Notes: generated by a model from the sequence alone, not told the origin. A stretch of DNA of 59,410 nucleotides from Candidatus Desulfofervidaceae bacterium (GCA_027064585.1 JAMOPI010000011.1:1-59410), one strand, 5' to 3'. Shown: positions 127-11,377, counted from the stretch's first letter. Program-made: numbers and translations.

Positions 127-459
127 TTACCCCTTTAGGATTTTTACTATACAATTTATAACTTCTTCAATCTTCTTCTTTTTTAATGTCCCAATTCTAT
201 ACAGAATTATACTCTCATCTGCTGTAAAAATTTTGTTTGGTCTTATATTACTTTCTTGTCTTAATCCGCCTTCTTCAAAATCAGCATCGTTCAACCTTAT
301 AGCATATTCATCTCTTACATTTTTACTTGTTATTTGACACAAAATCAAATCTTTCCCTTTTAAATTAGCTATTACTAACGTGGGTCGTCGTTTTGCTCCT
401 TTCAGGTCAGAAAAAGGAAAAGGGATAACGACTACATCTCCTTTTATAAATCTTTCCAT
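127..459 (-). CDS. MazF/PemK-like toxin of a type II toxin-antitoxin pair
   Basis: Predicted endoribonuclease toxin of the MazF/PemK superfamily, about 110 residues as usual for the family. The N-terminal pattern GDVVVIPFPFSDLKGAKRRP, followed by a TLVIAN strand and a central ITS motif, is typical of the SH3-like barrel. These toxins cleave mRNA when the labile antitoxin is lost. An in-frame ATG lies 27 nt further up, but the ATG at 459 is preferred: it follows a GAGGAAG ribosome site by a few bases, and family members begin about ten residues before the first beta strand. The start lies inside the end of the upstream antitoxin gene (16 nt overlap), implying translational coupling. Confidence 0.8.
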   Translation of the reverse strand: MERFIKGDVVVIPFPFSDLKGAKRRPTLVIANLKGKDLILCQITSKNVRDEYAIRLNDADFEEGGLRQESNIRPNKIFTADESIILYRIGTLKKKKIEEVINCIVKILKG

Positions 460-644
460 GCTTCGTCTTCCTCTGGTAAAAGCCAATCTTTGGCTAAAGT
501 TTTTTCGCTTAAAAATAAAGTTTCATTGTTTTCGACTTTTAATTTGAGAAATTCAATAAAATCAATCACTTCTTTCCAATAAGATGGGGGTAATTGCTTC
601 AATTTTTCTAAGACAATTTCTTCATATTTTGTTTGGGGTTGCAT
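444..644 (-). CDS. DUF2281-like antitoxin
   Basis: Small acidic protein of 66 residues. The N-terminal half (EKLKQLPPSYWKEVIDFIEF) matches the DUF2281-type antitoxin pattern in which short helices around a Leu-Pro-x-x-x-x-x-Glu-Val motif precede a C-terminal toxin-binding tail. That tail is acidic with two Trp (DWLLPEEDEAWKDL), as expected for a peptide that wraps a basic toxin. It is translated first, overlaps the toxin gene, and probably represses their shared promoter. An AGGAT ribosome site precedes the ATG. The family call rests on pattern and position; the pairing is well supported by the gene overlap. Confidence 0.7.
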   Translation of the reverse strand: MQPQTKYEEIVLEKLKQLPPSYWKEVIDFIEFLKLKVENNETLFLSEKTLAKDWLLPEEDEAWKDL

Positions 645-796: not shown

Positions 797-1962
797 TTAT
801 TCACACTGAGAAGAATCACAGGTGCGGCAGACGGCACAGCCAGTTTTAATGAGCCCTAAAACAATCAATGTCTGTCCTGGCTTGCTCCGGTCCCGATAGA
901 CGGTAACGCCCTTTAAGTTTAACGCATAGGCCTTTAAATAGATTTTCCTTAGGCCTTTAAATAGATTTTCCTCTTGACATCAATGACATTGTCCAAAAAG
1001 TGCACGGCTGTGTCTACTACTATTCCCAATTTATCATAATTTATGCCATCGGCCTCAACGAACTTAGAAAGATTGATAGACCCTAGGTTACAACTCTCAA
1101 AAGGTAAAAGTGGTTGCTCGCCGCAGGGATTGGTAGCCTCAATTTCGCCCAAGGCAGGCGTGGGATTAAATCTGTTGACAATGTCTATAAAGATTACCCC
1201 TGGATCACCAGTTTCCCAGGCCGCTTTGGCGATTTTGTCAAATATATAACGGGCAGAGACTTTGCGTACGGGCTTGCCGGTGCGGGGGTTAATGAGTTCA
1301 TATTCGGCGTCGTTTTTAAAGGCTTGCATAAAGCTATCGGTAATGGCTACAGAAAGGTTGAAGTTTCTCAATTGCTGCGCTTGTGTCTTGGCTTCAATGA
1401 AGATTTCAATATCTGGATGGTCAACACGCAAAATACCCATATTGGCCCCTCGGCGCATGCCTCCTTGTTTAATCGTCTCTGTGGCCACATCATAAATCCG
1501 CATAAAGGAAACAGGCCCACTGGCTACGCCATAGGTGCTTTTGACAAGATCACCTTGAGGGCGGATACGGGAGAAAGAAAAGCCTGTGCCACCACCACTC
1601 TTATGGATAATGGCGGCATATTTAAGGGTGTCAAAGATGCTTTCTATAGAGTCTTCTATAGGCAGAACAAAGCAGGCCGAAAGCTGTCCCAATTCTCGTC
1701 CGGCGTTCATAAGGGTAGGGGAGTTGGGCAGAAATTCTAGCTTGGTCATGAGGGTGTAAAATTTATGGGCCACAGCTTCAATGTCTGCCCTTTTATCGTA
1801 TAAAAGGTCTGCCGCCGCTACGGTCTTTGCCACCCGCCAAAACATTTCTTCTGGCGTCTCTATAGGCTCGCCGGAGGCATCCTTTTTAAGATAGCGCTTT
1901 GCCAAGACAAAAAGGGCATTTGGAGTTAAAGGCAAATTAGTTTTTACTTTAACTTTATCCAT
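797..1962 (-). pseudogene. nrdJ: Class II (adenosylcobalamin) ribonucleotide reductase, internally deleted and frameshifted
   Basis: The intact 5' part encodes 337 residues of a B12-dependent ribonucleoside-diphosphate reductase: SPTLMNAG near residue 81, LSACF with the first redox Cys (C97), glycine-rich [10 protein letters not shown] near 124, the thiyl-radical motif NPCGE (N278, C280, E282) and ESCNL with C291. Just after LDNVIDV the sequence jumps to what is normally the extreme C-terminus. The first copy of a 23-bp tandem repeat runs into a stop. The second copy, in another frame, continues as KAYALNLKGVTVYRDRSKPG and ends in a Cys-rich tail with its stop at 797-799. The second half of the barrel, with the substrate-phosphate loop, is missing, so the product should be inactive. 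Start at 1962 follows a GAGGAG site. Downstream of the AAA+ gene in the same operon. Confidence 0.8.
928..972 (-). repeat. 23-bp tandem duplication at the nrdJ deletion junction
   Basis: Two adjacent copies (928-950 and 951-972 plus one base) of a unit containing AGGCCTTTAAATAGATTTTC. Because 23 is not a multiple of three, the duplication shifts the frame. With a single copy the N-terminal part would read straight into the C-terminal part. The repeat sits exactly where the two ends of the gene are joined. Confidence 0.9.
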
Positions 1963-1994
1963 ATTTATCTCCTCTTTTTCACCCATTCACCATT

Positions 1995-4900
1995 TTAGTT
2001 TTGCCCCATCCAATTCCTTATCATTTGGTCAAGCTCGGCTTTATCCGTTGGCTCGTCTACCCATATTTCAAAAAAGCGGCTGCGCAGGGAAGGGGAAAGC
2101 AGGTTACGTGAGCCGTGGATGCGAGGCGGATTGATGGCCAAGAAGAGACGAAAATTGGGATGGGCCTTATAGACTCTTCCCTCTTCACTCATGAGATAGC
2201 CAAAGTCAATGAGGGTGTTTAGGTATTCAGAAAGGGGATTTAAGTTGGCCTCATCAATAAGGAGCCAAAAACCTTTCTCTACCGCCTCAAAGAGCAATCC
2301 TGGGCGATAGCGCCATTTCCCTTTATCATCCTGGACATATCCACCTAAGAGTTCTTCTAAGCTGGTGTCTGAAGAAAGGTTGATGTAGAACAGGTTTGTT
2401 CCCTTTTCCCTCGCCAGATAGCGCAAAAGGGTGGTTTTTCCTGAGGCAGGCATTCCTACTAAAAGTACAGGCTCATGCTGAAGAAGGGCAGTGAGGATGT
2501 AAGATAAGGTGATCTTTTGGGACTTGGTAGGCGTAATTTTACCTTCTTCTTGGGGAATAAAGTTATTGCCCTTAGTGACCTTAAGCTCGGTCATAAGGGA
2601 CCTGAGCCTTCTCCCTTGGGCCTCAATCATTGTCTTTAAGTCCAAGCCCTTTATTTTAAAACCAAAGTGGGTGTCTAAGAGGGCCATGAGGGCCTCTTTT
2701 TCGGTTTTATCCCTTATGCGGGCGAGATAAACGCCATAAAGGGCAGAAAACAAATGACTAAGTAATTCTCTTTCTGTAAGTTCCCTTTGAAAAAGCCATT
2801 CTATCCTTTTACCCAGCCGGATAATGTCCCTCAAAGAAAAGATATAGCTGTCTCTTTCTTCTTTGCCGATTAGTCTTGCCTCTGCCTGCGTCTCTAGGAT
2901 ACGGTGAAACCGGGCTAGAACAAGGGCAAAGGAGGCGGGGATGGAAAAAAGACTGCTTAAAATTTCAGCAATTTCTTGTTCAGATAAGGGGTTTTGGTAG
3001 TAAATTTGCCACCGGGAGAGAAAGACTTGGGAAAGTTTTTGACGCCCAGCATAGCTTTCGGGATTGGCGGTGGCAAAAAGCCTGAAGTCGGGGTGGGGTT
3101 TAAGACGTTTTTGCTTCCCATCCTGCGAATAGATAAAATAGCCTGTGGTCAGATAGTCGTTTAGGACTTCTATTACCTCTGAAGAGGCCAAGTTGATCTC
3201 CTCTAAAACCAGCCACTTGCCCTCCTTGGCGGCCTTAAGAATTACCCCATCCTGCCACTTAAACCGGCCCTTCTTATCTGGCTTTATCCCTCCAATGAGC
3301 TCAAATTTAGAAGAATAGGGGTTGAGGGTATAGGAAAGATGCTCATAGCCTAAGAGACTGGCCAGCCATTTTACGAGAAAACTCTTGCCTGTAGAGGTAG
3401 GGCCTAGGAGCAAAAGGGGATGCTTGAGTAAATAGGCAAGGGCGATGGTCTTTAACATCTGAAAACCCGTAGCCGTAAAGACACAAGGAGAAGGAAGAGT
3501 CTTCTTTTTTCTTTTAAGCACTAAATCCCCAAGAATTACTTCATCTTCTTTGATCCTTATAGCCGAGGCAAAACTGCCCTTTAAGGGCGTATCTAGGCTT
3601 TTGTTTAATGCCTGTTCAAACCGATTTATTACTTGCTTTAATTCTTTATCCTGTAATTCCTGGGCAATGGCCTTTGTTAATACCTTGGTAGCCCCTTGGA
3701 CAATCTCGTCTTCCTTTAAGGAAAGCATCTTTTCTAGGTTTGTTAAGTATTTTTTCTCTCCCTGCTCAATGAAGTGGGCGTATACCTGTAAAAGATTGTC
3801 GGCTGCGGCCTTGATCATGTCTGGATCTTCACTTTCTAGCCAGGCCTCTAGGTCGTTTAAATAATCCATCTTTCCCCTGATGGCCAAGGTGGCATAGATC
3901 TCGGCTAGGGAAGAAATAGCACTAATGCGGACATAGATCTTAGGATGTTCAAGCAGAAGCTCAATTTTGTCTAGCGCAGGGAGAATTTGCCTTTCAATCA
4001 TCTTTTTATAAATTGTGGTCAAGGCAGAAAGGGCGACAATACAGACATAAAAATCTGCATCATCAAGCATTTTCTCCAGTTCTTTAAATGCATTTTCATC
4101 CCCTCTTTGCGCAAGGAAACCATAGACCTGGGCCAAGGCAATGGAGATCTTCCGGCTAAAATACCAGTCTTTGGAATCAAGCATTCCTTTTAGCCTCTGC
4201 AGACAGGCTGTGTTCCCTCTCGCCACTTCTTGGGCACATACCTTGCCTAAGGCATTTGCTGCAGCGTTGGTTACGGGGCTATAACGGTCTTTAAGTAAGA
4301 CCTCTAGTTTTTCAAAAGAAGGATTTTGTCCTTCTTGGACAAGATAGAGATAAATGGGGTAAATGGCATTAATGGCGGCAATACGCACCCGCCAATCCTC
4401 ATTAAAGAGAAGCGATTCTAAACAGCCTAAATGGCAAGAACGCTGGGCTTTGAAGAAGGCCAGATAGATTTTCCCCAAGGCAATGGCAATTCTTTCCCTT
4501 ACCCGGCCATAGGGGCTATGCCGCATGTTTTCAAGAAGATGGAGATCAACTTCCCTCTGTTTAGTGATAAGGGCGGCATAAATTTCGGCTAAGGCCTCTA
4601 TGGCTGCGGTGCAGATATTTAAGTCCTTTTCTGTAAGTAAATTTTCTATGGGAGTAAGGTCAGGCCATTTCCCTTCTTGGATGGATTTAAGAAATGCCCG
4701 TTTAAGTTGGGCAAGAGCAGCCAAGACGATTTCAGATTGAGGATCAGCTAAAAGCCTTAGCAGCGAAGTCAAATATTTGCCCTCATCCTCCTCTAAAAGC
4801 AGGCAATAGGTTTCTGCCAACACACTGGCAGCGGTCTTACGCACATGCCAATCAGGGTGACGGAGGAGTTCCTCAAGTGTTTTTAAATACCTTCCTTCTC

Positions 4901-5456
4901 CCTGCCTAATTAAAAACTGATAAATTTCTCCCAAACACCGGGTAGAGAGTTCTCGGATACGCCAATAAGGGGCATTTAGCTGTTCTTTCAATTCTTCTAA
5001 AATTATTTCTCTTATCATTTGGCTGGGAATGCAAAAAAAGGCCGTCTTTAAGGCCAAAGTCCTCACTACCTCTTGGCGGTGTTTTAGCAGGCGGGATAAG
5101 AGTAAGAGAACGTTTTTTATCCCCTCATTTTGGGCAAAGGTACTAAGAAAGGCAATTAATTCTCCCAAACCTTTAAGGATGGCCACTTGAGCCTTAGGTT
5201 CAAAAGAAGAAATGTCCTCTTTGACCATTCCCCTTTCTTTGAGTTGGTTTAAAATATCTTTCCTAATTTCCTTTTTATCGCTACTCTGGGTAAAACCATA
5301 GTTTAAGGCCTCAAACAATGCGTTTTTATATCCAATCTGTTGGAGATAATTTAAGGCCTCAGCCGTCCTTTTTAAGTGGCGGACATTTAGTTGGGGCCAC
5401 TTTGCCTTTAAGTGGAGGTAAATTTCTGCTAAAGCACTGTTAAAATCTTTAGGCAA
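1995..5456 (-). CDS. HEAT-repeat protein with two midasin-like AAA+ (AAA_5) modules
   Basis: Protein of 1153 residues. Residues about 1-640 are HEAT/armadillo-like repeats of roughly 42 residues carrying W-x-V/I-R and A-L-x-x-I/V-Y signatures. Two MoxR/midasin-type ATPase modules follow. The first has Walker A GPTSTGKS near 685, Walker B LVLEEIN and an ATANPESYAGR sensor region. The second has Walker A GMPASGKT near 1003, Walker B LLIDEAN and an AINPP sensor with an Arg-rich LRSRFF end. MoxR-type ATPases work with VWA proteins to remodel or load metal into target enzymes, and the VWA gene lies directly upstream with an 8-nt overlap. The start is a TTG after a GAGGAG site. I know no characterised protein with this exact architecture; the target is unknown. 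Confidence 0.8.
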   Translation of the reverse strand: MPKDFNSALAEIYLHLKAKWPQLNVRHLKRTAEALNYLQQIGYKNALFEALNYGFTQSSDKKEIRKDILNQLKERGMVKEDISSFEPKAQVAILKGLGELIAFLSTFAQNEGIKNVLLLLSRLLKHRQEVVRTLALKTAFFCIPSQMIREIILEELKEQLNAPYWRIRELSTRCLGEIYQFLIRQGEGRYLKTLEELLRHPDWHVRKTAASVLAETYCLLLEEDEGKYLTSLLRLLADPQSEIVLAALAQLKRAFLKSIQEGKWPDLTPIENLLTEKDLNICTAAIEALAEIYAALITKQREVDLHLLENMRHSPYGRVRERIAIALGKIYLAFFKAQRSCHLGCLESLLFNEDWRVRIAAINAIYPIYLYLVQEGQNPSFEKLEVLLKDRYSPVTNAAANALGKVCAQEVARGNTACLQRLKGMLDSKDWYFSRKISIALAQVYGFLAQRGDENAFKELEKMLDDADFYVCIVALSALTTIYKKMIERQILPALDKIELLLEHPKIYVRISAISSLAEIYATLAIRGKMDYLNDLEAWLESEDPDMIKAAADNLLQVYAHFIEQGEKKYLTNLEKMLSLKEDEIVQGATKVLTKAIAQELQDKELKQVINRFEQALNKSLDTPLKGSFASAIRIKEDEVILGDLVLKRKKKTLPSPCVFTATGFQMLKTIALAYLLKHPLLLLGPTSTGKSFLVKWLASLLGYEHLSYTLNPYSSKFELIGGIKPDKKGRFKWQDGVILKAAKEGKWLVLEEINLASSEVIEVLNDYLTTGYFIYSQDGKQKRLKPHPDFRLFATANPESYAGRQKLSQVFLSRWQIYYQNPLSEQEIAEILSSLFSIPASFALVLARFHRILETQAEARLIGKEERDSYIFSLRDIIRLGKRIEWLFQRELTERELLSHLFSALYGVYLARIRDKTEKEALMALLDTHFGFKIKGLDLKTMIEAQGRRLRSLMTELKVTKGNNFIPQEEGKITPTKSQKITLSYILTALLQHEPVLLVGMPASGKTTLLRYLAREKGTNLFYINLSSDTSLEELLGGYVQDDKGKWRYRPGLLFEAVEKGFWLLIDEANLNPLSEYLNTLIDFGYLMSEEGRVYKAHPNFRLFLAINPPRIHGSRNLLSPSLRSRFFEIWVDEPTDKAELDQMIRNWMGQN

Positions 5457-7176
5457 GGTAAAACTCCTCTATCTTTTTCTCTAAAAGGTGGCCCAATGCC
5501 TGAGGTAATTCTTCTAGTCTTTCTATCTGGATGGCGTTTTTGTAACGCCTTTTTACATCGGTGATAAATCCACCAATGCCAATTCCGATGACCTCTATGT
5601 CCTTGTTTTCTGCCTCTTCCTGCAAGATAGCAAAGCTTTTGCCTGTATTGTTGACATTGCCCTCACCGTCGGTAATCATAATGATTAGTCTTAAGGCATC
5701 GTTAGGTGTATTTTCTAAAAGACCTGTCGTTAAGGCTAGGGCATCGGCGTCGGCCGTAAGTCCGGCGGGAATATACATAGAAATCTCAGCAAACAGCTCT
5801 GCCCTTTGCCTTGGGTTGAGCTCTGTGGTTAGCTCCTTATGCACCACTACGGTATCGGCAAATCCTACTAGGGCATAATTTATTTTTAGTTGGCTTAAAG
5901 TTTCCATAAAGAGCAAGAGGGCCTTTAAGGCCGCACTCCTTTTGGGTTCTACCATAGAGCCAGATTCATCTAAAACCAAGGCAATGTAATGCTCTCGCTC
6001 CGTAGGGAGCCTGCGCCTTAAAAAGATTTCTAAGTCACTTCTTTCTAAGGGGATGTTTTGGTCAAGCTTGCGTGTTTGGTTCATAGCCTTTCTTAAATCG
6101 GGTCTTTGTCCAGATTGGAAATAGCCTATATAACAATGTTTTCTGTTTTGGACCAAACAGTTTTCCAATACCCCATAGAGGTGTTGAATAAGGGAAGAAA
6201 TCTCAGGATAAAACCTTTGGTATAAAGAAGGGGTGGTAGAAGTTAGGTCCTTTTGTATGCGGATAAGGTTTCTAAGACTTAAACCTTTAAGAGATTTCCG
6301 TAGAGGTTGCTTAATGCCTTTAGGGGAAGGGGTAAAACTCCATTGCTCTTGCATATCTTGGGTCTCTATTTTAGGACGGAGGTCCTCTGCCAAGGCCTGT
6401 GCCCCTTGTTCTATAAGCCCCTGCACCATTTGTTGGGTCGTTTCGGTCTGAACATTAGGGGCTAGTTGTTCCTTAATTCTTTCTTGGGCTGTATCTACAA
6501 GTCTCTCATAAACTGGCAGGATGTGAGTAGTGATAAGTTGGGCGGTCTTAAGGGTAAGAGCAAACTTTTCCTTTTCTCCTACCCATCCTTTAGGATAGCA
6601 AGAAAAGATTGCTTCAAAAAAGGGATGAGTTTCCTCGAGGGCCTTTTTTACCTCTGGATTAAGAAGGAGGGGAGGGAATTTTTTGAACCGCCAAAGGTAA
6701 AGCACGCCAAGCAGATACTCAACGTGGGGATAAAAGACATAAGGATGAATGTCTTTTTTGATTTGTCTTTGTAAGTGGTTGATATATTCGGTCTTGGTCA
6801 GATCTTCTGACAAAAGTTGGTTATAAATCTGTTCTAAGTAAAATATTGCTCCTGGATAGAGAGAAATGACCCACTCGTTGGTGCGGATGTCCTCAAACAC
6901 ATGAAAAAGCAATTTAAGGTAGTTTTTAGAAAAAAGTTGGAGAAAAGGTTCTTTTCTTGGATCAATCCGGGTAATTTGTCTATGGCCAATTTCATGGAGG
7001 ATGAAACCAACGGTTTCTTCAAGTGAACATCGCTGGGTCAGGTCTTTAGGAAACTCCAATAAATTCCGTTCATAATCGTAACGCCAGACGTGTCCAGGTT
7101 TGACTTTAAGGGTAGTGTCTTCCCCTAAGGCCGTAGAAAGGATTTCAATCAGGCCAATTAGGTCTAAGTTAGGCAT
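5449..7176 (-). CDS. CobT/NorD-like protein: HEXXH metallopeptidase-like motif plus VWA domain
   Basis: Protein of 575 residues from the ATG at 7176. An upstream in-frame ATG at 7251 would add 25 residues but overlaps promoter sequence. The N-terminal part has HEIGH (61-65) in a hydrophobic helix and a downstream FEDIRTN segment (94-100), the arrangement of a zinc-peptidase HEXXH with a third acidic ligand. The C-terminal VWA domain has the MIDAS motif DESGS (D403, S405, S407) and later the conserved Thr and ITDGEGN segments. VWA partners of MoxR-type ATPases (NorD, CbbO, CobT, ViaA) act as adaptors. Here the ATPase gene follows with an 8-nt overlap. Peptidase activity is not certain: CobT-like proteins carry comparable remnants. 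Confidence 0.8.
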   Translation of the reverse strand: MPNLDLIGLIEILSTALGEDTTLKVKPGHVWRYDYERNLLEFPKDLTQRCSLEETVGFILHEIGHRQITRIDPRKEPFLQLFSKNYLKLLFHVFEDIRTNEWVISLYPGAIFYLEQIYNQLLSEDLTKTEYINHLQRQIKKDIHPYVFYPHVEYLLGVLYLWRFKKFPPLLLNPEVKKALEETHPFFEAIFSCYPKGWVGEKEKFALTLKTAQLITTHILPVYERLVDTAQERIKEQLAPNVQTETTQQMVQGLIEQGAQALAEDLRPKIETQDMQEQWSFTPSPKGIKQPLRKSLKGLSLRNLIRIQKDLTSTTPSLYQRFYPEISSLIQHLYGVLENCLVQNRKHCYIGYFQSGQRPDLRKAMNQTRKLDQNIPLERSDLEIFLRRRLPTEREHYIALVLDESGSMVEPKRSAALKALLLFMETLSQLKINYALVGFADTVVVHKELTTELNPRQRAELFAEISMYIPAGLTADADALALTTGLLENTPNDALRLIIMITDGEGNVNNTGKSFAILQEEAENKDIEVIGIGIGGFITDVKRRYKNAIQIERLEELPQALGHLLEKKIEEFYLA

Positions 7177-7302: not shown

Positions 7303-8475
7303 ATGAAGACCATAGAGGAAATCAATGCCAAGATAAAAAAGGGGAAGGCAGTAGTGGTTACGGCTGAAGAAATTCTAGAAGTCGTAAAGGAAAAGGGGAT
7401 AAAGAGAACATTGCAAGAAGTAGATGTGGTCACCACCGGTACCTTTAGTCCGATGTGTTCCTCCGGCATGTTGCTTAACTTAAAACAGCCCAAGCCGTCA
7501 ATGAAATTAGGAGGGGGCGAGGTTTTCTTAAACGGAGTAATGGCCTATGCTGGCTTTGCCGCTGCCGATCTCTATCTGGGGGCAGCAGCCTTGCCTGAGG
7601 ACGACCCTCGTAACCAGGTCTATCCCGGTGCCTTTAAGTATGGAGGAGGACATGTCATAGAGGAGTTTGTGGCCGGAAAAGATATAAAAATTGAGGCCTA
7701 TGCTTACGGCACCCATTGTTACCCAAGAAGGGAGTTTACCGGCTTTATCAACATTCATTCAGTAAACAATGCTGTTTTATTGAATCCTCGTAATGTCTAT
7801 CAGAACTATAATGTGGCTGTGAATCTATCTTCAAAAATGGTTTATACCTATATGGGAGCCCTTTTGCCTAGATTAGGCAATGCTAGCTATGCCACGGCTG
7901 GACAGCTTTCTCCTTTATTGAATGATCCTTATTACAAAACGATCGGTATAGGCACGCGCATTTTTCTAGGAGGCGGAATCGGTTATGTCATCTGGCACGG
8001 TACGCAACATAGACCCAAGGTGCCTCGTACAAATAAGGGTATTCCTACGCGACCAGCTGGTACTTTGGCCTTGATCGGGGATTTAAAACAGATGAATAGC
8101 TATTGGATTAGGGGAGTATCTCTGCGGGGATATGGCGTAAGCCTAGCCGTGGGAGTGGGTATTCCTATTCCCCTTTTAAATGAGGAGATTCTTTCCTATA
8201 CCCTGGTGTCAAACGAGGATATCATCATGCCAGTGGTGGATTATGGTGAGGCCTATCCTGAAGGAAGGTCAGAGGTATTAGAAGAGGTGACTTACGCCGA
8301 GTTACAGTCAGGAGAGATAGAAATCGGTGGGAAAAAGGTGCCTACAGGTACTTACTCTAGTTATGCGCGGGCAAGAGAGGTGGCAGAGACATTGAAGGAA
8401 TGGATCAAGGCAGGCAAGTTTACCCTTACCCAACCAGCCGTTACCTTAGAAGAGTTAGGAGTAAGCTATGGTTAA
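7303..8475 (+). CDS. L-aspartate semialdehyde sulfurtransferase (COG1900/DUF39 homocysteine biosynthesis protein)
   Basis: Member of the DUF39 family that, in methanogens, converts aspartate semialdehyde and sulfide to homocysteine together with a NIL-domain ferredoxin. It spans 390 residues, full length. Two Cys expected to carry persulfide or disulfide chemistry are visible: C52 in FSPMCSSGM and C139 in YGTHCYPRR. Other family features are the Gly-rich RIFLGGGIGYVIWHGTQH segment and a PVVDYGEAYPEGR stretch. The next gene encodes the matching ferredoxin and overlaps by 8 nt, the same order as MA1821-MA1822 in Methanosarcina acetivorans. It replaces O-acylhomoserine-dependent homocysteine synthesis in sulfide-rich anaerobes. 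Confidence 0.9.
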   Translation: MKTIEEINAKIKKGKAVVVTAEEILEVVKEKGIKRTLQEVDVVTTGTFSPMCSSGMLLNLKQPKPSMKLGGGEVFLNGVMAYAGFAAADLYLGAAALPEDDPRNQVYPGAFKYGGGHVIEEFVAGKDIKIEAYAYGTHCYPRREFTGFINIHSVNNAVLLNPRNVYQNYNVAVNLSSKMVYTYMGALLPRLGNASYATAGQLSPLLNDPYYKTIGIGTRIFLGGGIGYVIWHGTQHRPKVPRTNKGIPTRPAGTLALIGDLKQMNSYWIRGVSLRGYGVSLAVGVGIPIPLLNEEILSYTLVSNEDIIMPVVDYGEAYPEGRSEVLEEVTYAELQSGEIEIGGKKVPTGTYSSYARAREVAETLKEWIKAGKFTLTQPAVTLEELGVSYG

Positions 8476-8890
8476 GAAAAAGTATCTTTTAATCTTTCCA
8501 CCAGAGGCGGTAGAGCAGCCCGTAACCTATCGCTTAATTAGCGATTATCACTTAGTTATCAATATCTTAAAGGCCAGTGTTTCTCCAGGCAGAAAAGGAC
8601 GCTTGACCTTGGAGATAGAAGGAGAGGAAAAAAATCTTTCCCGAGCCATTGCCTATTTAAATAGTATAAATGTGGAAATCAAACCGGTTATAGAGAATAT
8701 TCGTTGGCGTGAGGAAAAATGCGTTCACTGCACGGCCTGTGTGCCAGGGTGTCCAGGCCAGTGCTTTGTCGTGGATAGAAAAACTATGCGGGTATCTTTT
8801 CATGAAGAAAAGTGTGTGGGGTGTAAGCACTGCCTCTCGGTGTGTGCCTATGGGGCAATAGAAGTGGTAGAGGAAAACAATGCGTCTTAG
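8468..8890 (+). CDS. NIL domain / 2x[4Fe-4S] ferredoxin partner of the sulfurtransferase
   Basis: Protein of 140 residues. Residues about 5-75 form a NIL domain (a small ACT-like ligand-binding fold). The remainder is a bacterial-type ferredoxin with eight cluster cysteines: C85, C88, C91, C95 and C116, C119, C122, C126, plus an extra C99. In Methanosarcina the equivalent protein is needed with COG1900 for homocysteine formation, presumably reducing the persulfide or disulfide on the sulfurtransferase. The start overlaps the preceding gene by 8 nt after a TTAGGAG site, and the end overlaps the YcaO gene by 11 nt. Confidence 0.88.
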   Translation: MVKKKYLLIFPPEAVEQPVTYRLISDYHLVINILKASVSPGRKGRLTLEIEGEEKNLSRAIAYLNSINVEIKPVIENIRWREEKCVHCTACVPGCPGQCFVVDRKTMRVSFHEEKCVGCKHCLSVCAYGAIEVVEENNAS

Positions 8891-10601
8891 AGATGTCTTT
8901 AAGGGCTATACCCTAGATCAAGACAAGGTTATCTCTCCTGAAGAAACCTGTCGGAAGGTTAAGGCTAAATTAAAGGAAACGGGTCTTAACATTTTCCAAA
9001 AGACCGAACGCATTGATCAGGGCCGTCTGGGGATTCCTGTTTATTTCAGCTTTTACGGAGAGGAAGGAAGAAGAATTACCGGCAAGCGAACACAGATGGG
9101 TAAGGGGGCTACACCGGCCCAGGCAGAGGCCAGTGCCCTGATGGAGCTGGTAGAGAGATATAGCTATTTCAGTTTTAAACAGCATTCCCAACATTTTGTC
9201 ATTGGCACCTATAACCAAATTTTCCATCCCATTCCTCTGGAACTTATCGTCCATTCGGTGCATGATAAGGAGAATTTAGAAAGGGCCAAGGTCGTCTTTG
9301 AAAATATAGCCTTGCGCTGGGTAAAGGCCTACAATCTTACGCGCGATGAAGAGGTGTGGATTCCTTTTGATTGGTTCGTGGCGATAAACGAATTTAACGG
9401 AACTTCAGCAGGTAATGCGTTGGAAGAGGCAATTATCCAAGGTCTGTGCGAGGTTGTAGAAAGGCATGTATGTGCTGTTATTGCTAGGGAGAAGAGGTTT
9501 ACGCCTGCTATTGATCCAGAGACAATTAAAGATAAAGTCGCTAAAGAATTATTACAAAAATATCTTCAAGCAGGTATTGTGCTTTATCTAAAGGATTTCA
9601 GCCTGGACATAGGTCTTCCTACGGTAGGTGTCCTTGCCTATGACCCTAAGACCTATCCTCAAAGTGAGATTGTCTTTACGGCCGGAACACAGACAGATCC
9701 TACTAAGGCCTTGATAAGGGCCCTGACCGAAACCGCTCAGTTGGCTGGCGATTTTTTAATGTCTCCTGGCTATGTGCCTAGTGGTTTGCCTAAACCAAAA
9801 AGTTTGAAAGAAGTAGATTATGTCATAAAAACCCAAGAAAAGATATCTATTTCGCAGTTACCGGATATTTCTGATCAAAATATACGCATAGAAATAAAAA
9901 GGGCAATTGCGGCCCTAAAAGAAAAGGGATATGAGGTTCTGGTTTTAGATTTAACCCATAAAATTTTGAAAATACCTGCAGTTTATGTCATAGTGCCAGG
10001 GGCATGCTTTTGGCAAAGAGCACAAGGGGAAAGTGTACCTTTGTTCTTATGTCGTGTTGTTTCAGAATTGTATTCTAGGGAGGATTTTATAAAGATTTTA
10101 TCCTTTCTCCAAAGTGTATTTCCTGAGCACTACGCCATTCCCTTTTATTATGGAATGGTTTATTTTAATCAACAGGCCTTTGATCAGGCCAGGGAATGGT
10201 TTAAAAGGTCTTTAAAGGCTAAGCCTACTTTAGAAGATAGGGCCATAATTTTGGCCTATTTGGGGTGTTGTTATAAAGAGAAGGGAGAATATAAACAGGC
10301 CATAGCTGTTTTTAACGAAAGTCTGGCCTGTGATCCGGAACAAAAAGAGGTCTATAATTTTATAGGCACCTGTTACCATCAACTTGGGAAATACGAGGAG
10401 GCCATAGAGGCCTTCCAAAAGGCCATTGCCCTTGATCCGCATTCGGCCATTGATTATGCTAATATTGGTGTGAGTCTAGAAAGAATCGGGAGAGAGGCTG
10501 AGGCGGCCTTTTTCTACCAACAGGCCTTAAATATAGATCCTTCTTTGCACTTTGCCCGTATAAATTTAGAAAAATTGGAGGGGGAAAGAACATGCCATTA
10601 G
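8880..10601 (+). CDS. YcaO-domain protein fused to C-terminal TPR repeats
   Basis: YcaO enzymes use ATP to activate backbone amides for cyclodehydration or thioamidation. The family ATP/Mg motifs are seen: [12 protein letters not shown] near 83-94, and the [16 protein letters not shown] segment near 180. There is no proline-rich C-terminus of the azoline-forming type. Residues about 420-570 instead form four TPR repeats (for example [19 protein letters not shown]), likely for partner or peptide binding. No TfuA, leader peptide or precursor gene is nearby. The neighbours use inorganic sulfide, so sulfur insertion into a protein or tRNA target is a reasonable inference, but the substrate cannot be read from sequence. 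Confidence 0.8.
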
Positions 10602-11377
10602 ATGAATTAAAGATTACACAGGCCATCATTGAACGTTTTACGGAAAAATTAAAGTCTGCCTTGAATTTGGATGTAGCCATTGTTGGCGCTGGTCCTTCGG
10701 GAATGGTGGCTTCCTATTATCTTGCCAAACAGGGACACAATGTGGCCATCTTTGAGAAAAAGTTAAGCATTGGTGGCGGTATGTGGGGCGGCGGCATGAT
10801 GTTTAACCAGATTGTCGTGCAAAAGGAAGGAAAACGCATTTTAGATGAATTTGGCGTAAAGACCGTGCCTTATAGAGAAGGATATTTTACGGCCGATGCC
10901 ATAGAGGCAACAACGGTCATCTGTGCTAAAGCCTGTCAGGCAGGGGTTAAGGTATTCAATTGTATATCTGTAGAAGATGTGGTGGTGAGAGAGGGAAGGG
11001 TATGTGGTTTGGTCATCAACTGGTCGCCAGTAGAAGTGACTGGATTATATGTGGATCCACTGGTGGTGAGGGCACGTTATGTGGTGGATGCCACCGGCCA
11101 TACCACTGAGGTGATGAAGGTCATTGAAAGAAAAATGGGGGCGAGGTTGCTTACTCCCAGTGGGAAGATAGAGGGAGAAAGGTCCCTCTGGGCAGAGGTG
11201 GCCGAAACCACGACATTAGAGAACACAAAGGAGGCGTATCCAGGCATCTTTGTCTCTGGCATGGCTGCTAATGCTACTTTTGGCTCCTATCGGATGGGAC
11301 CAATTTTTGGAGGAATGTTGCTTTCAGGCGAAAGGGTGGCCCAGCTTATCCATAAGCGGTTACAGCAAGAAAATTAG
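10592..11377 (+). CDS. thi4: Thi4-family thiazole synthase, sulfide-dependent (archaeal) type
   Basis: Makes the thiazole precursor of thiamine from NAD+, glycine and sulfur. The sequence shows the dinucleotide-binding VGAGPSGM (31-38), the GGGMWGGG segment (61-68) and VVDATGH (164-170), and at 261 residues is typical of archaeal-type Thi4. Yeast Thi4 gives up its own Cys205 as sulfur donor, while methanogen enzymes have His there and use free sulfide. The aligned position here is Tyr153 in GLYVDP, so a suicide mechanism is excluded and sulfide use is likely. The start follows a GGAGGGGGAAAG site and overlaps the YcaO gene by 10 nt. The 3' end overlaps flgL by 4 nt in convergent orientation. 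Confidence 0.85.

Follow-up and report, generated by a model that had tools for sequence, protein, structure and literature searches.

Contig C11 of Candidatus Desulfofervidaceae bacterium (59,410 bp, analysed at full length as the window; genome size 1.92 Mb) carries two overlapping genes, whose products combine a putative metal-binding motif, a von Willebrand-type (VWA) domain, a HEAT array and two AAA modules. The pair lies next to a gene of a B12-dependent enzyme. What kind of machine do these genes encode, and does it serve the neighbouring enzyme in the manner of CobS-CobT?

Architecture and conservation of the gene pair

The positions of the features are summarized in Table 1. The reading frames, the HEIGH, VWA, HEAT and AAA-AAA architecture, and the 8-nt overlap of the two genes (positions 5449-5456, from the ORF coordinates) agree with the original prediction. 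Pfam searches assigned VWA, VWA_2 and CobT_C (the last above its cut-off) to the product of gene 1, and HEAT repeats, two AAA_5 modules and, between these modules, the midasin lid PF17867 to that of gene 2.

Table 1. Positions of the features of the gene pair and of the adjacent reductase remnant within the window
Feature	Coordinates	Strand	Remarks
Gene 1: zincin-like domain, linker, finger and VWA (MIDAS)	5449..7176	-	575 aa from ATG; ORF call, Pfam, model
N-terminal zincin-like domain, residues 1-240	6457..7176	-	no match to any family in Pfam, NCBIfam or PDB
HEIGH (HExGH) motif, residues 61-65	6982..6996	-	H, E, G, H invariant 14/14
FEDIR motif, residues 94-98, with E95 (or D96) as the candidate third metal ligand	6883..6897	-	invariant 14/14
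VWA finger motif GYFxSGQxPDLRxxM, residues 344-372	6061..6147	-	profile-aligned to the midasin MIDAS finger region
VWA domain, residues ~397-571; intact MIDAS D403-S405-S407, T474, D503	5464..5988	-	Pfam, alignment
Gene 2: HEAT-AAA1-lid-AAA2 protein	1995..5456	-	1153 aa, TTG start; ORF call, Pfam, model
HEAT array (residues ~97-617) of ~13 helix pairs, preceded by a short helical segment at the N-terminus	3606..5168	-	Pfam, model
AAA1, residues 660-825: Walker A GPTSTGKS, Walker B LVLEE, sensor 1 N798, arginine finger R815, helix-2 insert hairpin	2982..3479	-	
Midasin-type AAA lid PF17867, residues ~826-957, sensor-2-like R876	2586..2981	-	45.6 bits, cut-off 22.7
AAA2, residues 968-1140: Walker A GMPASGKT, Walker B LLIDE, sensor 1 N1109, arginine finger R1127	2037..2555	-	
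NrdJ 5' remnant (B12-dependent ribonucleotide reductase), judged outside the system	949..1986	-	345-aa ORF

In the AlphaFold2 model of protein 1 (mean pLDDT 73.5), a helix and three strands are followed by the HEIGH helix, the FEDIR helix, a long helical middle part and, joined to it by a low-confidence linker, the VWA domain. Residues H61, E62, G64, H65, F94, E95, D96 and R98 are invariant in the alignment of all 14 homologues covering them, which come from three distant lineages; E95 is located 30 residues past the second His of the HExxH motif. This invariance indicates that the HEIGH motif, noticed originally in a single sequence, is not a chance occurrence, and the functional link, said at the time to fall if the HEXXH residues were not conserved, stands on this point. 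Judged from the sequence and the predicted helices, the domain displays the gluzincin feature, i.e. an HExxH helix with a Glu on the next helix, and the protein probably carries a metal site. Searches of Pfam, NCBIfam and PDB detected no homology to known zincin or peptidase families, and no DUF2201 match was found in Pfam; the sole peptidase-family signal was a weak one, given by the domain of one member to MPTase-PolyVal (E-value 0.18). Remote relatives sought in 395 + 393 genomes came only from carriers already known, and none of the literature searched dealt with DUF2201-type metallopeptidase-VWA proteins. An isolated and strictly conserved zincin-like domain is newly brought to notice in syntrophic anaerobes and methanogens.

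The MIDAS residues of the VWA domain (D-x-S-x-S, T and D) are kept in 13/13 homologues. A profile search with this domain gave midasin MIDAS as the first match (2e-7), in an alignment that passes through the finger motif. The best Foldseek match of the gene 1 model was Rea1-MIDAS (6qt8; 9e-10), followed by Mdn1-MIDAS and NorD.

In the model of protein 2 (AlphaFold2, mean pLDDT 82), ~13 HEAT helix pairs lead through a small beta segment to AAA1, which bears the helix-2 insert hairpin; the helical lid and AAA2 follow, and AAA2 stops one helix past its core. It is a reasonable guess that the HEAT array constitutes a substrate arm. The two modules are related to each other (83 bits, 34% identity) and both retain Walker A, Walker B, sensor 1 and the arginine finger in all sequences covering them, with EE in place of DE in the AAA1 Walker B of all homologues. 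Together with the helix-2 insert, these constitute features of clade 7 AAA+ proteins. A lid after AAA2 is absent from every homologue examined, AAA2 has no sensor 2, and in Syntrophia this module is followed only by a low-complexity tail whose last residues are KR(F/Y)TH(F/Y). Since its C-terminal lid is missing, AAA2 is not a complete AAA+ unit, which refines the original description of two ATPase modules in one chain. The combination of AAA and VWA parts follows the logic of the MoxR-VWA remodellers, and the MIDAS, finger, Walker motifs, sensor 1 and arginine fingers are all present.

A PDB profile search with the AAA tandem ranked midasin above all other entries: its six-module protein as a whole gave 3e-142, and the best alignment of a single tandem reached 154 bits. 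Dynein, CbbQ, CobS and NorQ scored 41 bits or less. Taken singly, both modules matched midasin AAA3 best (AAA1, 92 bits; AAA2, 99-106 bits), while CobS and all of the other MoxR proteins and dynein remained at or below 48 bits (CbbQ 30-48, dynein ≤44, NorQ ~34-35). The lid profile PF17867 was found in 5 of 198 Desulfobacterota genomes, the very five that carry the pair, whereas 14 control genomes gave no match. Foldseek matches of the HEAT-AAA model were led by dynein and Rea1/Mdn1. In a tree of AAA modules, those of midasin and of the prokaryotic proteins interleave, midasin AAA3 grouping with AAA2 of the prokaryotic proteins and AAA1 of midasin lying outside both; with supports of 0.72-0.76, this grouping is only a hint. 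No prokaryotic midasin was described in the literature searched. By these scores, the ATPase half resembles midasin more than any solved bacterial relative in the data searched, and the term midasin-like proves stronger than it was when first applied, as module scores, lid and MIDAS all point to midasin.

Distribution, pairing and fusion

Gene 2 was found in 5 of 247 sampled genomes of the phylum, all of Desulfofervidaceae, and gene 1 adjoins it in the same five (5/5 sampled). There is one copy per genome, and all sampled members of this family carry the pair, while its other neighbours vary among them. When 84,980 species genomes were scanned with the AAA-tandem alignment, in a search that requires one of two conserved 8-residue stretches and that distant relatives may thus escape, 15 loci were revealed. 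These belong to (i) Desulfofervidaceae, (ii) Syntrophaceae and other deltaproteobacterial MAGs and (iii) archaeal MAGs of methanogen classes; the loci outside Desulfofervidaceae share 56-60% identity across the AAA tandem. A contig scan with the VWA sequence alone as the query gave no matches, in contrast to that with the AAA-tandem alignment. The carriers amount to 9 of 155 genomes in the class Syntrophia; in the sample of the archaeal phylum, they number 6 of 247. Five of these six archaeal genomes contain mcrA and are therefore methanogens. Relative to the genome sets searched, the two-part motor is rare and confined to a few anaerobic bacteria and methanogenic archaea.

In the bacterial MAGs outside Desulfofervidaceae, the system is encoded as one chain of ~1,800 aa, arranged as zincin-VWA-HEAT-AAA-AAA. 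In the archaea, two separate genes encode the system, and the VWA protein is extended at its N-terminus by ~240 aa, for which family searches detected no known relatives. The constant adjacency of the genes and their fusion in Syntrophia support the view that they form one functional unit, the natural fusion being the strongest evidence that they build one machine. Inspection of the neighbours of the homologues, proposed with the original prediction, showed the VWA partner to be always adjacent or fused, while a cofactor-enzyme neighbour is not general. No neighbouring gene is conserved across all three lineages.

Putative mechanism and alternative readings

We consider it somewhat more probable than not (about 0.57) that the pair constitutes a prokaryotic midasin-like, ATP-driven client-remodelling machine, whose client would probably be a metalloenzyme or a large assembly. 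This reading is favoured because the pair has each of the parts that act in the NorQD mechanism, the zincin-like domain taking the place of the N-terminal domain of NorD, and the motor bearing a HEAT arm. NorD puts its finger into the NorQ pore and engages the client through its MIDAS and N-terminal domain; a linker is twisted by ATP hydrolysis, leading to the insertion of iron (PMC13036017). Midasin, Rea1 and other MoxR/VWA pairs are proposed to dock the finger in the same way (PMC9976466).

The pair may work like midasin or like NorQD, in which two proteins realise the same principle. The HEAT protein would supply two linked ATPase modules (AAA1-lid-AAA2), and three copies of it could form a six-module ring, with lids on every second module. 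The VWA finger of the partner would enter the ring pore, and the MIDAS would grip an acidic residue on the client, as in midasin (Rea1/Mdn1) and NorQD, with the zincin-like domain and the HEAT array binding, recognising or positioning this client. ATP hydrolysis might then strain or open it; most likely it would be a metalloenzyme or a large assembly under maturation, and the zincin-like site may hold or sense metal. We infer this ring stoichiometry, the finger-in-pore docking, the type of client and the metal role of HExGH/FEDxR. Because AAA2 has neither a lid nor sensor 2, the modules may fail to assemble into a standard six-site ring. The fused form would place three VWA domains at one pore, and its ratio of one VWA per two AAA modules, compared with one per six in NorQD, counts against a remodeller. 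Metal-site maturation is favoured as the more likely task, and a zincin protease is the main rival.

As a regulated metalloprotease, the system would bind zinc through HExGH and E95 and cut a client unfolded or presented by the AAA modules, the VWA and HEAT parts giving specificity. This reading is supported by the full HExxH with its catalytic Glu and by the invariant Glu downstream, both kept in 14/14 homologues, and the predicted order of helix, three strands, HExxH helix and Glu helix is that of a small gluzincin. VWA-AAA partners of the MoxR class are nevertheless known as remodellers, and apart from the weak MPTase-PolyVal signal the domain matches no peptidase family in the databases searched; we thus regard proteolysis as rather improbable. 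Unlikely to a higher degree is a general assembly factor for a ribonucleoprotein or other large complex, i.e. a true midasin analogue in ribosome maturation. Although the strongest similarity in both sequence and structure is to midasin, in the AAA modules, the lid and the MIDAS, the patchy spread of the pair (5/247, 9/155 and 6/247 genomes) is not what a core ribosome factor would show, a connection to ribosomal genes was not seen, and the midasin linker (~1,700 aa; PMC11603028) is missing. MoxR-vWA pairs with repeat domains also occur in biological-conflict systems (PMC7159879), but a defence role is very unlikely here and was rejected: there was no meaningful PADLOC match and the genomic behaviour is wrong, with a constant architecture lacking a variable effector or a third core component common to all lineages, and with a single copy per genome in all sampled members of one family. 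Searches of plasmid, phage and viral (IMG/VR) collections found no relatives, which also led us to reject a mobile or viral origin. The plasmid and phage matches to AAA1 were single-module CobS/MoxR-like proteins, located beside DUF3150 or CobT genes where inspected.

The least credible reading is a metal or cofactor loader, in the style of CobS-CobT, for the adjacent cobalamin-dependent reductase or another B12 enzyme. The reductase gene directly follows gene 2 in both members of the genus of the window (intact and overlapping in L007), and only there, and the CobT_C match of the VWA domain might be taken in the same sense. In the window, however, the genes run, as first described, into a class II reductase remnant, i.e. 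the 5' part of NrdJ. This ORF is followed by out-of-frame pieces that correspond to later stretches of the intact gene, the middle of the gene is missing, and a repeated GAAAATCTATTTAAAGGCCT is present at the junction; an assembly error may be responsible. The reductase family (PF02867) is absent from carrier genomes G038 and G107 and located on another contig in G163, the reductase never adjoins the relatives in Syntrophia or archaea, and the CobS model TIGR01650 scored 34.5 bits against a curated cut-off of 558.55. With the reductase a remnant here, its family absent or elsewhere in carriers, and no such adjacency outside Desulfofervidaceae, the suggested link to cobalamin falls; the distribution of PF02867 has already largely refuted it, and the neighbouring B12 enzyme gene is probably a bystander.

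A link to metal was seen in another lineage. In all eight Syntrophia loci whose contig extends that far (L017, L018, L020, L025, L028, L029, L054 and L057), the gene following the fused one encodes a DUF4213/DUF364 protein, with 69-88% identity to the L017 copy, while the upstream neighbours differ. A structure paper has linked the DUF364 family to heavy-metal handling ("heavy-metal chelation"; PMC2954201). Searches found DUF364 neither in Desulfofervidaceae nor in two archaeal carrier genomes, and a metal role is therefore supported in one lineage only.

Comparison with known AAA+/VWA systems

With the general class of MoxR AAA+/VWA remodellers, the pair shares the clade 7 AAA+ features and an adjacent or fused VWA domain with MIDAS and finger. 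It does not fall into the NorQ/CbbQ group, defined by a single AAA module closest to these proteins. With NorQ-NorD and CbbQ-CbbO it shares the two-protein plan of an AAA+ component and a finger-bearing VWA partner with a distinct N-terminal domain, and the NorD VWA is among the best Foldseek matches of the gene 1 model. In contrast, NorQ is a single-module homohexamer without HEAT repeats, which gave 2-3 times fewer bits per module than midasin, and the N-terminal domain of NorD is not detectably related to the zincin-like domain. The resemblance to CobS-CobT consists of the AAA+/VWA pairing and the CobT_C match, but the CobS equivalog model remains far under its cut-off, and no cobaltochelatase large subunit was seen nearby. 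Dynein heavy chain has concatenated AAA modules and a place among the top Foldseek matches, but it scores 44 bits at most and has no VWA partner, and its six modules, stalk and linker are absent here.

The likeness to midasin (Rea1/Mdn1) extends to AAA3 as the best match of both modules, the PF17867 lid, the tandem arrangement in one chain, and a finger-bearing MIDAS VWA as the top profile and Foldseek match. Strictly, the system is not midasin, as it has neither six modules nor a C-terminal MIDAS in the same chain: two modules are present in all homologues, the second without a lid, and the MIDAS is carried by a separate protein or, in the Syntrophia fusion, lies N-terminal to the AAA modules. 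It is also prokaryotic, and has a HEAT array and an additional zincin-like domain.

The origin of the six one-chain AAA modules of eukaryotic midasin and dynein is a standing question, and the pair offers a small, expressible system for the study of concatenation, finger docking and the pulling of clients through the MIDAS. We tentatively raise the possibility, itself doubtful, of a "split midasin", in which AAA1-lid-AAA2 and the finger-MIDAS VWA would be the closest prokaryotic kin of the concatenated-ring line of midasin and dynein, intermediate between homohexameric MoxR rings and six-module eukaryotic motors, and equipped with a previously undescribed zincin-like domain and a HEAT arm. In this system the MIDAS partner occurs both split and fused, and midasin is a nearer match of the modules and lid than the solved MoxR proteins are.

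The ribonucleotide reductase remnant and its putative toxin-antitoxin neighbours

The class II (B12-dependent) ribonucleotide reductase next to the zincin-VWA and HEAT-AAA-AAA genes is a remnant with an internal deletion, at whose junction lies a 20-nt direct repeat (GAAAATCTATTTAAAGGCCT). This remnant is the only PF02867 protein in the genome, and the deletion reflects genuine decay or else a collapse in the assembly. The broken gene is directly followed by a gene for a PemK/MazF-type toxin, and the short ORF upstream of the latter appears to encode the cognate antitoxin.

Features of the window and of the Syntrophia and archaeal loci
Feature	Position	Strand
Ribonucleotide reductase remnant	window 949-1986 and 800-967	-
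PemK/MazF-type toxin gene	window 127-486	-
Short ORF	window, from about 643	-
Divergent cluster	window 7303-11377	+
DUF4213/DUF364 gene	L017:9776-10543	
C-terminal tail (example)	L018 near 9750-9776	
VWA N-terminal extension	L026:3329-4060; L022:3406-4130	
185-aa protein	L022:9870-10427	

The divergent sulfur gene cluster

The divergent cluster, which looks like a sulfur-incorporation operon, encodes a homocysteine-biosynthesis enzyme (HcyBio), a NIL-ferredoxin, YcaO fused to TPR repeats (an unusual fusion) and a sulfide-dependent Thi4.

Syntrophia and archaeal loci

In every Syntrophia locus extending that far (L017, L018, L020, L025, L028, L029, L054, L057), a DUF4213/DUF364 gene is located immediately 3′ of the fused zincin-VWA-HEAT-AAA-AAA gene. 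The fusion proteins end, after a low-complexity stretch, in a conserved KR(F/Y)TH(F/Y)(S/T) tail.

The VWA protein of the archaeal loci L026 and L022 carries an N-terminal extension of about 240 aa, for which no Pfam or NCBIfam match was found. A conserved 185-aa protein is encoded directly 3′ of the archaeal HEAT-AAA-AAA gene (L022, L019, L021, L023, L026, L027); in L022, an HSP20 gene precedes the VWA/HEAT-AAA-AAA pair.
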